64,000 nt of DNA from Paenibacillus borealis (GTDB lineage: Bacteria; Bacillota; Bacilli; Paenibacillales; Paenibacillaceae): NCBI RefSeq assembly GCF_000758665.1, contig NZ_CP009285.1, forward strand, positions 248,001 to 312,000, given 5' to 3'. Shown here in pieces: positions 60,838-63,574 of the stretch. The translations under genes and the position numbers were made by a program. The stretch's first letter is position 1. Each line of letters opens with the position of its first letter. Under the pieces are notes generated by a model, which saw only the letters and a list, made by a program, of their open reading frames with translations, was not told the origin of the DNA and searched no databases.

Positions 60838-62115
60838 CTACTGCGTGAGCTCTACGAAATCTCCCCGGAACCGCTCATAATCGGCGGCCCGGCACTCCAG
60901 CTTAAGGCGTGTGCCCTGCTCTTCGTAGCTGACAGACTGCACATCGGCATGCTCATTGAAGTAAGAGACGATGCTGCCCCGGTCGAATGGGACCAGAATC
61001 TCACACTGAATATAGTCGGTAAAGACCCGGCTGCGGATCAGTTCGGTAAGCTCGGTAATTCCGCGGTTCTTCAGCGCAGAGAGCGTTACTGAATTCTCCT
61101 GGACCTGCGGATAAGGCTGATCCGTCAGATCGGCTTTGTTGTAGGCATACAGGGTGGGAATTCCGTCAGCACCCAGCGCCTTCAGGGTCTCATCCGTTAC
61201 AGCCATATGCTGCTCATGCTGCGGATCGGAAATATCAACCACATGGATCAGCAGATCCGCTTCCGTGACCTCTTCCAGCGTCGAGCGGAACGCCTTGACC
61301 AGATGATGGGGCAGCTGGCTGACGAAACCGACGGTATCCGTTAGCAGGAAGGTTTTGTGATCGGGCAGCTCGATGCTGCGCACCGATGTCTCAAGAGTGG
61401 CGAACAGCATATCCTTGGCAAAAACACCCTTGCCCGAGCCGGGATGATAGGTTTCCACCAGTGTATTCATTAAGCTGGACTTGCCGGTATTGGTGTAGCC
61501 CACGAGACAAACGACAGGCACCTCATTCTTATGGCGCTGCTTACGCTGAATCTGGCGTCTCGAGACCTGTGCCTGCAGCTCCAGTTGCAGCACCGAGATG
61601 CGCTCCTCGATTCTTCTGCGGTCCAGCTCCAGCTTCGTCTCCCCGGCACCCCTGTTCTTCAGGCCGGTTCCGCCTCCGCCGCCTTGTCTGCCCAGCGATT
61701 CGCGCAAGCCCGTCAGGCGGGGAAGCATGTACTGCAGCTGCGCTACTTCCACCTGGAGCTGGGCTTCCTTAGTCTTGGCCCGCTGCGCGAAGATGTTCAG
61801 GATCAGAATCGTCCGGTCAATGACCTGACGGTCAAGCGTGGATTCCAAGTTGCGGATCTGGGATGGCGACAGCTCGTCATTGAAAATAACGATGGGCGCT
61901 TCATGCTGCTCCATCAGCAGAGCCAGCTCCTGGATTTTGCCGGTTCCGATGTAATGCGAGGGATTCACCCGGCTGGACTTCTGGCTGAGCTCAGCCACCA
62001 CCTCAATATCGCAGGCAGCTGCCAGATTGCGCAGCTCCTCCATGGCATAATCGAAGTTATTGTCATTCTGCAGCTGTACACCCACGATGACTGCTTTTTG
62101 TTGTAAGGATTCCAT
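60838..62115 (-). CDS. hflX: HflX ribosome-associated GTPase
   Basis: A 425-residue GTPase. The N-terminal HflX domain includes ELSPSQIRNLESTLDRQVID; the G domain begins with VCLVGYTNTGKSSLMN (P-loop) and contains TDTVGFVSQLPHHLVKAF and YNKADL. HflX splits stalled ribosomes and rescues translation under heat or antibiotic stress. The ATG at 62115 lies 11 bases after GGAGG; a start six codons earlier overlaps that site. A terminator sits 35 bases upstream, at the end of a roughly 470-nt leader with its own small ORF, implying attenuation control. Confidence 0.93.
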   Translation of the reverse strand: MESLQQKAVIVGVQLQNDNNFDYAMEELRNLAAACDIEVVAELSQKSSRVNPSHYIGTGKIQELALLMEQHEAPIVIFNDELSPSQIRNLESTLDRQVIDRTILILNIFAQRAKTKEAQLQVEVAQLQYMLPRLTGLRESLGRQGGGGGTGLKNRGAGETKLELDRRRIEERISVLQLELQAQVSRRQIQRKQRHKNEVPVVCLVGYTNTGKSSLMNTLVETYHPGSGKGVFAKDMLFATLETSVRSIELPDHKTFLLTDTVGFVSQLPHHLVKAFRSTLEEVTEADLLIHVVDISDPQHEQHMAVTDETLKALGADGIPTLYAYNKADLTDQPYPQVQENSVTLSALKNRGITELTELIRSRVFTDYIQCEILVPFDRGSIVSYFNEHADVQSVSYEEQGTRLKLECRAADYERFRGDFVELTQ

Positions 62116-62149
62116 ATATTGTTCAACCTCCATTGTTAAATTTGGGCAC

Positions 62150-62178
62150 AAAAAAGCACAGGCAGTCTGCCTGTGCTT
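62150..62178 (-). terminator. Leader terminator just before hflX
   Basis: On the minus strand AAGCACAGGC, loop AGACT, GCCTGTGCTT, then TTTTTT. It ends 35 bases before the hflX start, so it must be passed for hflX to be made. Its 5' arm GCACAGGCAG can pair instead with CTGCCTTGTGC early in the leader (62523-62533), with one bulged base. Confidence 0.85.
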
Positions 62179-62557
62179 AAGGGATTATGAGGAACAACAG
62201 AATAGGGTCCTGTAGAAACGTTACACCTGTAACGGCTCTGCAGCTATGGCACTCCCATAGATAATATGAAGCAAAGAACCGGCAGCAGATAGGGCGGAAT
62301 AGTGCTCTATTCCAGCCATGCCGGGCTGCGGATCCTATATTCTCTATGGGGATGCAATTCCTAAAGGCATACGCGGCCGGGCGGAGCAACCTCGGTTCTC
62401 CGTTCGATCTAAGAAACGTTACCTTCCCTTACAAGGATGGCAAAAGCCGTTTCTACTTATCCCGCGTATAGTTCAAGCTATGGGCTGCCTCTAAAAATGG
62501 ATAGACCTATCCTGAGTCCTCTGCACAAGGCAGAGCTTTCGCGCTATGAAGCTGTAA

Positions 62558-62596
62558 TTAGCCGCGTAAGTTACGAATCCGGATATAATCTATCAC
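62558..62596 (-). CDS. Short upstream ORF in the hflX leader (12 residues)
   Basis: GTG start at 62596, stop TAA at 62560-62558, encoding MIDYIRIRNLRG. The ribosome site GGAGGG (62603-62608) is six bases before the start, an ideal spacing, and 14 bases after the predicted transcript start. Position and size are those of a leader peptide whose translation controls a downstream terminator. Expression is inferred. Confidence 0.6.
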   Translation of the reverse strand: MIDYIRIRNLRG

Positions 62597-62628
62597 ACTG
62601 AGCCCTCCGTTCTAAAAAAGTTAAGTTG

Positions 62629-62657
62629 ATTTTAGCACAGCGGGTATGAAATGGCAA
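62629..62657 (-). promoter_or_regulatory. Sigma-A promoter of the hflX leader
   Basis: On the minus strand TTGCCA (62652-62657), a 17-bp spacer and TAAAAT (62629-62634). Predicted transcript start near 62622. Confidence 0.72.
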
Positions 62658-62779
62658 CTGCGCCCAGTTACGGAAGCACCTGATGGCTGTGGAATGCCCC
62701 CCGCTGTCAATAAACCAGAAACTTCTAATCTGCTCGGCATATGATATATGAAATAGCTTTAATAGGAGGGTGATCAGCT

Positions 62780-63574
62780 GTGCCCGTATTGACAACCAAC
62801 ATGTTAACAAAGAACCCTACCTTGGGAGCAGGGCCTATCAGTCAAGCTGTCGTAAAGGTAGTGAACAATGGAACCTCCAGAGGAGTGGTCTACTTAACCG
62901 GGCTTAATAACGATGTAAGTCCGGCGACTCTGTTCGCCCAGGAACTGTTTGAGTTGAATTACAGGGAAGTCGTAACCAAAACCTATAATGTTACACAGAA
63001 TTTTTTTCAATTCAATGTAGTGTACTCCCAGGAGCAGGTCCGTGTACGGGTGTTCCTGATTGACAGCAGCGGGGTCTGGATTCCCGTTCCGATGCAGCCG
63101 ATTGCTGTAAGCCGGATCACTTCGGAATTCCGTGACAATATAGCTGTTACTGATAGCGATTTCGCAGCCATCAGCTTCCGGAGAAGCCCCACGGTGACTA
63201 TTCCCGAAGCGGTGACTGCCGAGATCAAAGCGGATGGACTGGGAATTCTGGCCTCCACTCCCATCCGCTATAAAGTGATCGCCGGCGGAAGCGTCAACGG
63301 AGCCTTTGTGAACTATCCTACGCCGACTACAGCTATTCCCATCACTGAAACTGCGCTGCAAGTGAACTATACATGTACAGCAGTCACTGGCGGAAGGGTC
63401 ATCACTCAAGGAATCGGCTCCGGCATAGCCGGTGCGTACCAGAATGTTGCCGTGAATCTGGTGAATCAGCAGCTGCTCTACGACATGCAGCAGGAGCCCA
63501 TTACGCTGGTGGTAAGTTCCCTCGCGGGAGAGGACAATCTGGCTGCTACTTTTAGAATGTCGGAGCAGTGGTAA
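62780..63574 (+). CDS. Beta-rich surface/spore-like protein, shares a domain with the collagen-like protein
   Basis: A 264-residue protein with no signal peptide or transmembrane helix. The first 110 residues (AVVKVVNNGTSRGVVYLTGL, then EVVTKTYNVTQNFFQFNVVY) resemble the N-terminal domain of the collagen-like protein at 44909 in motif order: a VxVxNxGTS-type opening strand, an E..TxTYxx turn and a final F.V.L strand. The rest is also beta-rich. The start is GTG at 62780 with AGGAGGG nine bases ahead. A role in the spore or cell surface is inferred from that similarity only. Confidence 0.65.
   Translation: MPVLTTNMLTKNPTLGAGPISQAVVKVVNNGTSRGVVYLTGLNNDVSPATLFAQELFELNYREVVTKTYNVTQNFFQFNVVYSQEQVRVRVFLIDSSGVWIPVPMQPIAVSRITSEFRDNIAVTDSDFAAISFRRSPTVTIPEAVTAEIKADGLGILASTPIRYKVIAGGSVNGAFVNYPTPTTAIPITETALQVNYTCTAVTGGRVITQGIGSGIAGAYQNVAVNLVNQQLLYDMQQEPITLVVSSLAGEDNLAATFRMSEQW

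Follow-up and report, generated by a model that had tools for sequence, protein, structure and literature searches.

The leader of hflX in Paenibacillus borealis is very probably a macrolide-responsive transcription attenuator controlling an HflXr-type gene, as judged from its sequence and from that of its counterparts in other Bacilli. Gene and leader were read on the minus strand of a 64,000-nucleotide (nt) stretch of the genome (contig NZ_CP009285.1, positions 248,001 to 312,000; hereafter the window), and coordinates are counted from the first letter of that stretch. Comparison among relatives supports a short upstream open reading frame (uORF), its arrest motif and a set of pairings, while ribosome arrest, the class of the drug, the direction of the switch and the output of the gene are what we infer. 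That ribosomes slowed on the short ORF switch an attenuator had been put forward in an original prediction made from the letters alone; the motif-bearing ORF, the pairings that keep their complementarity across lineages and the leaders of resistance genes described below support this, and they also support a sharper wording, in which a macrolide-type arrest, rather than slowing of any kind, would operate the switch.

The leader lies behind a sigma-A type promoter (TTGCCA-17-TAAAAT with TG before the -10, 62657-62629, by consensus scan), and a like arrangement is seen by eye in close relatives. The Shine-Dalgarno (SD) site GGAGGG (62608-62603) stands six bases 5' of a 12-codon uORF running from GTG to TAA (62596-62558), which encodes MIDYIRIRNLRG and has Arg-Ile-Arg at codons 6-8. 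At the other end an intrinsic terminator (62178-62150, found by scan and comparison), with its stem at 62178-62154 and a T-run at 62155-62150, ends 34 nt before the ATG of hflX (62115). Promoter, SD site, uORF and terminator had all been named in the original prediction and were borne out, as was the complementarity of CTGCCTTGTGC at 62533-62523 to the terminator 5' arm GCACAGGCAG (62176-62167). Taken alone, the promoter and terminator scans perform at chance level (2 promoters found vs 1.9 in shuffles, 3 terminators vs 2.3). The 477-nt leader folds with a z-score of -4.61, equalled by 0 of 100 shuffles, and the 135-nt core alone folds more weakly (z -1.81, 7 of 200 shuffles as good).

Beyond the pairing originally proposed, we find three helices: a longer one flanking it (62521-62506 with 62206-62189), one closing over the SD site and one between the ORF and the antiterminator. 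The SD-closing helix, P0, joins GGGCU (62605-62601) to AGCCC (62486-62482, placed by the alignment of cores). The putative anti-antiterminator 5' strand corresponds to uORF codons 2-6 (62592-62581) and pairs with 62512-62502 in the RNAalifold structure (98.7% of cells paired). Helix P1 (62565-62541) joins the 3' end of the uORF to the sequence past its stop (62565-62559 with 62546-62541; 96.5% of cells paired), and hairpin P2 (CUCUGC:GCAGAG, 62535-62519; 100%) competes with the antiterminator pairing. The 5' strand of the antiterminator (62533-62506), placed by comparative pairing, consists of CUGCCUUGUGC (62533-62523) and GAGGACUCAGGAUAGG (62521-62506), and its 3' strand is CCUAUUCUG..UCCUC (62206-62189).

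Both the short ORF and the pairing arms are retained in relatives, where the original prediction had asked for them. DNA matches to the leader occur in 62 of 100 genomes of the same genus (own genome included); the best cover its first ~160-190 and last ~90-180 bases, and several of the 62 come solely through a dispersed repeat. The hflX comparison set comprised the window and 80 named loci, and a short ORF behind an SD site is present in 79 of these 81 upstream regions (L052 being included on condition that ATC may serve as a start). As many as 77 of the 79 uORFs encode (Arg/Lys)-X-(Arg/Lys), hereafter +X+, a count that is not wholly blind because an Arg-X-Arg candidate was preferred in the 34 regions with several candidates (the remaining 45 had a sole candidate). 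The first basic residue stands at codon 6 in 36 uORFs and at codon 5 in 22. Across the 77 motif leaders the first basic codon is CGG (24), AGA (22), CGA (16), AAA (13) or CGT (2), and the second CGT (38), AGA (15), CGC (14), CGA (9) or CGG (1). In 20 distinct 12-codon uORFs, codon 8 is AGA (10), CGT (7), CGC (2) or CGG (1), and of 11 codons, 8 vary at the third position vs 2 at the second. Because the leaders were picked by peptide, with the arginine given, this spread shows freedom of the bases and not conservation of arginine, which rests on the motif count. Paenibacillus radicibacter has two hflX genes ~14 kb apart with a leader before each (L070 and L072).

The fold of the core was examined in an alignment (A1) of 38 cores, that of the window and 37 relatives, from which L038 and L060 had been removed by hand and identical rows dropped. 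RNAalifold yields P0, the helix between the uORF and the sequence downstream, P2 and part of P1 (two pairs). Once P1 is extended, 97.5% of 1100 pair cells are formed, and sliding the partners lowers pairing to 28-44%. Double-change cells number 22 vs 7.3 in shuffles and the covariation score is 0.127 vs 0.101, neither being reached in 500 shuffles. P0 links the SD site to a strand ~120 nt downstream with 94.3% of cells paired over the helix, and its two arms change in step (GGGUUAC:GUAACCC and GGGUUGC:GCAACCC beside the GGGCU:AGCCC of the window). In P2, one pair shows a double change from C-G to U-A in 5 of the 38 cores.

Two partners are open to the strand from P2 through GAGGACUCAGGAUAGG: CCUAUUCUG..UCCUC, just 5' of the terminator, and, in register with it, the terminator 5' arm. 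This pairing spans about 300 nt. In other lineages the complementarity is kept despite changed sequence (GCGAACGG:CCGUUCGC and GUAAAUGG:CCAUUUAC; by eye also GAGGU:ACCUC and GAGAA:UUCUC). Computed with RNAduplex, the antiterminator duplex has a mean of -47.4 kcal/mol with matched strands vs -41.4 (sd 0.59) with permuted ones (0 of 2000 permutations as good; n=75, 4 of 79 dropped for no anchor), and the duplex of ORF and antiterminator -23.4 vs -20.3 (sd 0.36; 0 of 2000, n=79), in a permutation of partners that ignores relatedness and retains two leaders without the motif (L057 and L078). Shuffled uORFs give -15.7 with the antiterminator, and the uORF is likely the anti-antiterminator. The two exclusive folds of the original prediction are in this way supported by comparative pairing. 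When a stalled ribosome is modelled on the uORF, the terminator 5' arm pairs more with the antiterminator, at a mean of 0.74 instead of 0.43 (38 up, 1 down, 29 within 0.05; n=68, the other 11 of 79 being dropped because they lacked a motif or an anchor or had their uORF beyond 560 nt). Under the same folding model, a footprint placed in the spacer as a control gives a mean of 0.35, with 6 up.

In the mechanism that we propose, ribosomes would clear the uORF fast in the absence of the drug and the uORF RNA would re-pair with the antiterminator strand; P0 would close over the ribosome site of the uORF with P1 and P2 folded inside, the terminator would form and hflX would be off. A drug bound in the ribosomal tunnel would stall the ribosome at Arg6-X7-Arg8, where it would cover codons 2-6 of the uORF along with the 5' strand of P1. 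Since its uORF partner would then be covered, the antiterminator strand would be freed to pair with the pre-terminator strand and the terminator 5' arm, and because that arm is taken up, RNA polymerase would read into hflX, whose product would split stalled ribosomes. The long spacer may act as a delay, giving the ribosome time to arrive at the motif ahead of terminator synthesis.

Several observations weigh against this mechanism. Two of the 81 hflX upstream regions (L089 and L095) show no SD-preceded uORF, and two uORFs miss the motif, one reading RVW (L057) and one with a broken frame (L078). In the 38 cores, pairs changed on both sides number 3 vs 1.9 in shuffles (118 of 500 shuffles as good) and further pair types 18 vs 17.1 (141 of 500); the ORF:antiterminator helix and P1 show no double changes among these close relatives. 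The strand of the GRTRL group pairs better with the partner of another group (-41.8) than with its own (-38.1), and Rossellomorea-type uORFs pair no better with their own strand (-17.5) than with that of another group (-17.6). Finally, the equilibrium model gives the window itself 0.97 antiterminator with and without a stalled ribosome; this speaks against a purely thermodynamic reading, and since that model shows no switch, the default-off state of the window would rest on the order of folding during transcription.

Between the two ends of the switch lies a variable spacer. From the uORF stop to the terminator arm the median distance is 292 nt (n=74), with a range of about 185 (L037) to 524; a single value of 99 (L064) is due to a wrong anchor. 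The spacer sequence is poorly conserved even among close relatives. In the window it contains, outside the switch, a dispersed ~45-nt repeat (62458-62413) with 12 matches genome-wide (itself included) and many in other genomes, which is REP- or MITE-like. Five loci of one lineage (L067, L068, L071, L073 and L080) have an extra terminator-like hairpin mid-leader (GAGGGAGG..CCCTC, then T). A mid-leader hairpin of this lineage (GAGGGAGGGC..GCCCTC-T5) was picked by script as the hflX terminator in some of its loci and was rejected; a CACAGG- or ACCACAGG-type terminator lies downstream in the sequences read.

The gene itself (60838-62115) encodes a ribosome-splitting GTPase of 425 amino acids scoring 442 bits with TIGR03156 (cutoff 216.75), and is one of two hflX copies in the genome, which are 41% identical. 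Against solved structures the window protein scores best with 8a57_D (468 bits vs 245 for 5ady_6), and the order is reversed in the second copy (L002: 287 bits with 8a57 vs 304 with 5ady, and 307 with 8vkw), which marks the window gene as the HflXr paralogue; 8a57 we take to be Listeria HflXr, 5ady E. coli HflX and 8vkw a mycobacterial protein. Searching the whole genome with covariance model R2 (see below) at E 5 gives one site, the leader of the window hflX, and none at the second copy (L002:1474-2763, minus strand). That copy adjoins ORFs that look by eye like an AAA-ATPase and a pyridoxal-phosphate enzyme. Divergent from the leader in the window is an ORF of 264 amino acids (62780-63574, plus strand) for which no Pfam, NCBIfam or PADLOC match was found.

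Control of this kind is already known from Listeria hflXr, ErmDL/ermK, tlrB and uORFC-6-1, and what we say of these systems and of the macrolide esterases refers to parts of the papers cited. The rli80 leader of hflXr (lmo0762) in Listeria monocytogenes is an attenuator demonstrated by experiment; it precedes an HflXr-type gene, is ribosome-dependent and combines a 14-codon Arg-X-Arg uORF with a terminator, an antiterminator and an anti-antiterminator overlapping the uORF (PMC6310831). The window resembles it in the HflXr paralogue, the Arg-X-Arg uORF and, by comparative pairing, the exclusive terminator and antiterminator, and differs from its description in the GTG start, Arg-Ile-Arg, the SD-closing P0 and the long variable spacer. 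The uORFC-6-1 motif, published in 2021 in RNA Biol, has 51 unique members, mostly in Bacillales and mainly before hflX, the target named there; it has a conserved Arg-Leu-Arg uORF, a structure wholly 3' of the uORF start codon and a proposed attenuation (PMC8632094). The leader in the window likewise precedes hflX, reads Arg-Ile-Arg where other hflX leaders compared here have Leu, and would work alike; because its structure reaches upstream of the start codon, where P0 uses the SD site, we do not file it under that motif.

The uORF peptide has further relatives. In the ErmDL/ermK leader of Bacillus licheniformis Arg-X-Arg likewise occupies codons 6-8; that leader controls a methyltransferase, unlike the hflX of the window, and the likeness described here concerns the uORF peptide. 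ErmDL-like peptides (MTHSIRLRFPTLNR, MTHSMKLRFPTLNQ) occur in the present RNA family, preceding erm-like genes. ermK is reportedly under transcriptional attenuation, to go by the title of a 1991 paper by Kwak. The ErmDL uORF, MTHSMRLR.., stalls at Arg6-Leu7-Arg8 (PMC8298421). For tlrB (yxjB) of Bacillus subtilis, a MIIQFIRYR uORF with RYR arrest governs both transcription and translation attenuation; it differs in requiring NusG-dependent pausing, in responding to tylosin and not erythromycin, and in arresting at the C terminus of the peptide (PMC6851288).

The core also stands before many other genes. Covariance model R1, for which the 38 hflX cores were the sole input, matches at E 1e-4 in 274 of 394 genomes of the family (own included) and in 15 of 19 genera. 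Re-searching 38 multi-match genomes with R1 gave 91 matches, and 66 cores in 58 fetched loci were examined downstream. They precede Erm (24 cores belonging to 19 genes, five of which have two cores in tandem), HflX (16), Mph (10), macrolide esterase (7), a short-chain dehydrogenase (SDR; 4), Msr (2) and one each of RlmA-like, condensation-like and MFS genes. Representatives lie above curated cutoffs for Erm (NF000499, four proteins), Msr (NF000168, two), macrolide esterase (NF052610, one) and SDR (PRK08263, one), the RlmA-like representative is above the cutoff of Pfam PF21302, and those of Mph are below family-exception cutoffs.

The input of model R2 comprised 104 R1 matches from 97 sources, and for that reason the model is no longer independent of the non-hflX sites. 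It matches in 264 of 392 genomes and 31 of 49 genera of the order, and in 85 of 299 genomes and 36 of 118 genera of the class (own genome and family included in both). Within the order, 80 mostly lower-scoring loci, fetched from 113 matches in 53 multi-match genomes, carry Mph (19), esterase (19), HflX (10), Erm, RlmA-like and Msr (7 each), SDR (2), MFS (1) or no class (8, among which L308 is Mef-like). Outside the order, 60 of 75 matches precede Mph and Erm (15 each), HflX (7), Msr and esterase (5 each), SDR (3), RlmA-like (2) or no class (8: two Mef-like and one LmrB-like by NCBIfam, below exception cutoffs, four alike by eye, one fragment). In 76 other loci, mostly the best match of each genome, 73 were assigned (HflX 65, Erm 6, Mph 2). 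Classes were given by blastp or tblastn to our own references at E 1e-10 or 1e-8, with some Mph and Erm at 37-50% identity, and their proportions are biased because genomes were chosen for more than one match.

The pairing that defines the switch recurs in these leaders. For the 50 of 62 non-hflX leaders with a usable anchor the antiterminator duplex has -39.0 vs -30.3 permuted (sd 0.75; 0 of 2000), and the result holds within classes for Mph and esterases (0 of 1000 each) and more weakly for Msr (27 of 1000) and Erm (18 of 1000). A CACAG-/ACAGG-type terminator arm is found in Mph (16/19), esterase (16/19), Msr (6/7) and SDR leaders (2/2), but only in 1/7 Erm and 1/7 RlmA-like ones, which use other arms. 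Rfam at its gathering thresholds gave no match for ten loci with non-hflX leaders (among them L228, which also has an hflX leader).

Some arrangements deserve mention in their own right. At L172, L174, L177 and L178 two cores stand in tandem ~350-420 nt apart before erm-like genes; a CACAGG terminator follows the first, and none is seen by eye after the second, whose end lies close to the ribosome site of erm. The layout resembles a transcription attenuator followed by a translation attenuator. At L227, L228 and L229 a second leader with an erm-like gene lies ~1.7-1.9 kb beyond hflX and its own leader. Seven loci (L256, L259, L271, L274, L281, L287 and L309) have no gene of a reference class within 1 kb and are either orphan leaders or serve other targets. 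An SDR gene follows the leader in several bacterial families (L196, L198, L203, L214, L290, L292, L373, L380 and L391), and the two SDRs checked (L203 and L391) are PRK08263-like.

The uORF varies with the gene controlled. Called in 130 cores by SD spacing only, +X+ is present in the uORFs of HflX (10/10), Msr (9/9), RlmA-like (7/8), Erm (24/31), Mph (23/29), no-class (4/8) and condensation-like (1/1) loci and absent from both MFS ones (0/2). It is likewise absent from all 26 esterase uORFs (MLN 12, MAN 6, MLIFFPVSL 5, three others) and all six of SDR genes (MIDSSR 5, MIDYSR 1); a few calls of 1-3 codons elsewhere may be caller errors. Outside the order, five esterase uORFs are MAN or MANQ, and three SDR uORFs without +X+ read MIDFSR, MIDSSR and MLVIFRALNS. 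At esterase loci such as L275, L280, L304 and L310 a three-codon uORF (MLN or MAN before the stop) is joined to the same core; inspection by eye also shows an anti-antiterminator re-matched past the stop. Macrolide esterases of Gram-positive bacteria reportedly raise resistance to 16-membered macrolides, not to 14- or 15-membered ones (PMC12704417; a text search of the accessible part of that paper finds no 'leader peptide' or 'attenuat'). Our hypothesis is that the very short uORFs sense 16-membered macrolides.

Other readings of the hflX leader have to be set against macrolide-responsive attenuation. The same attenuator might have another tunnel or peptidyl transferase centre drug, for example a lincosamide, as its natural inducer: the Listeria hflXr transcript is induced more strongly by lincomycin than by erythromycin (PMC6310831), and an LmrB-like relative of lincomycin efflux carries the RNA. 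However, macrolide-resistance types (mph, macrolide esterase, msr, erm) make up most of the genes assigned in the family, and the motif is that of +X+ arrest; we regard a non-macrolide inducer as unlikely. Three Arg codons among the 12 of the uORF might instead suggest an amino-acid attenuator, in which scarcity of charged arginine tRNA turns on hflX, but Lys stands in for the first Arg in 13 of 77 motif leaders, the uORFs called in esterase leaders lack Arg in 25 of 26 cases, and no assigned gene belongs to arginine metabolism (16 of 140 loci being without class), all of which makes this reading extremely improbable.

It is very doubtful, too, that Arg-X-Arg is kept solely for the pairing of its codons with the antiterminator, the peptide being irrelevant: the motif codons do lie in or beside the ORF:antiterminator duplex, but they vary among the 77 peptide-picked leaders, the first between CGG, AGA, CGA, AAA and CGT and the second between CGT, AGA, CGC, CGA and CGG. 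As to the length of the leader, the original prediction had suspected a further RNA function behind it, and 477 nt with a strong fold could indeed suit a riboswitch or a non-coding RNA with a function of its own. Rfam gives no match in the whole window at gathering, nor in 61900-62800 at E 5, and the middle of the leader varies in sequence as well as in length (about 185-524 nt among relatives) and is broken by the dispersed repeat in the window; the suspicion is not supported, and we give such a function next to no credence. Macrolide-responsive attenuation remains the reading that we prefer.

For the family as a whole, the evidence tips slightly towards a single RNA family acting as a drug sensor common to much of the macrolide-lincosamide resistome in Bacilli, where it would stand before hflXr, erm, mph, msr, mef-like, lmrB-like, rlmA/tlrB-like, macrolide-esterase and SDR genes. 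Its uORF would be swapped according to the drug, Arg-X-Arg serving broad genes and the three-codon MLN or MAN sensing, on behalf of the esterases that destroy them, 16-membered macrolides that block the first peptide bonds, and the SDR would be an undescribed macrolide-modifying enzyme. We know of no macrolide role for this SDR family, and a literature search gave no paper on short-chain dehydrogenase, macrolide resistance and tylosin together; the PRK08263-like SDR is a candidate macrolide-resistance enzyme. Nor did the search find a paper with one leader RNA before these gene families; most subscription papers lay outside it and priority is unproven, so that the common core, the sensor swap and the SDR candidate may be, but are not proven to be, what is new here.

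Alone, the leader in the window is one more case of a known control mechanism. As a member of the family it suggests that one RNA model can flag macrolide-resistance genes, probably drug-inducible, across Bacilli and can tie together gene families hitherto studied singly, with the length and motif of the uORF possibly setting the drug spectrum. Searching by leader, not by protein, would offer an inexpensive route to undiscovered resistance genes in soil bacteria, and already points to an enzyme family, the SDRs, without a known macrolide role.
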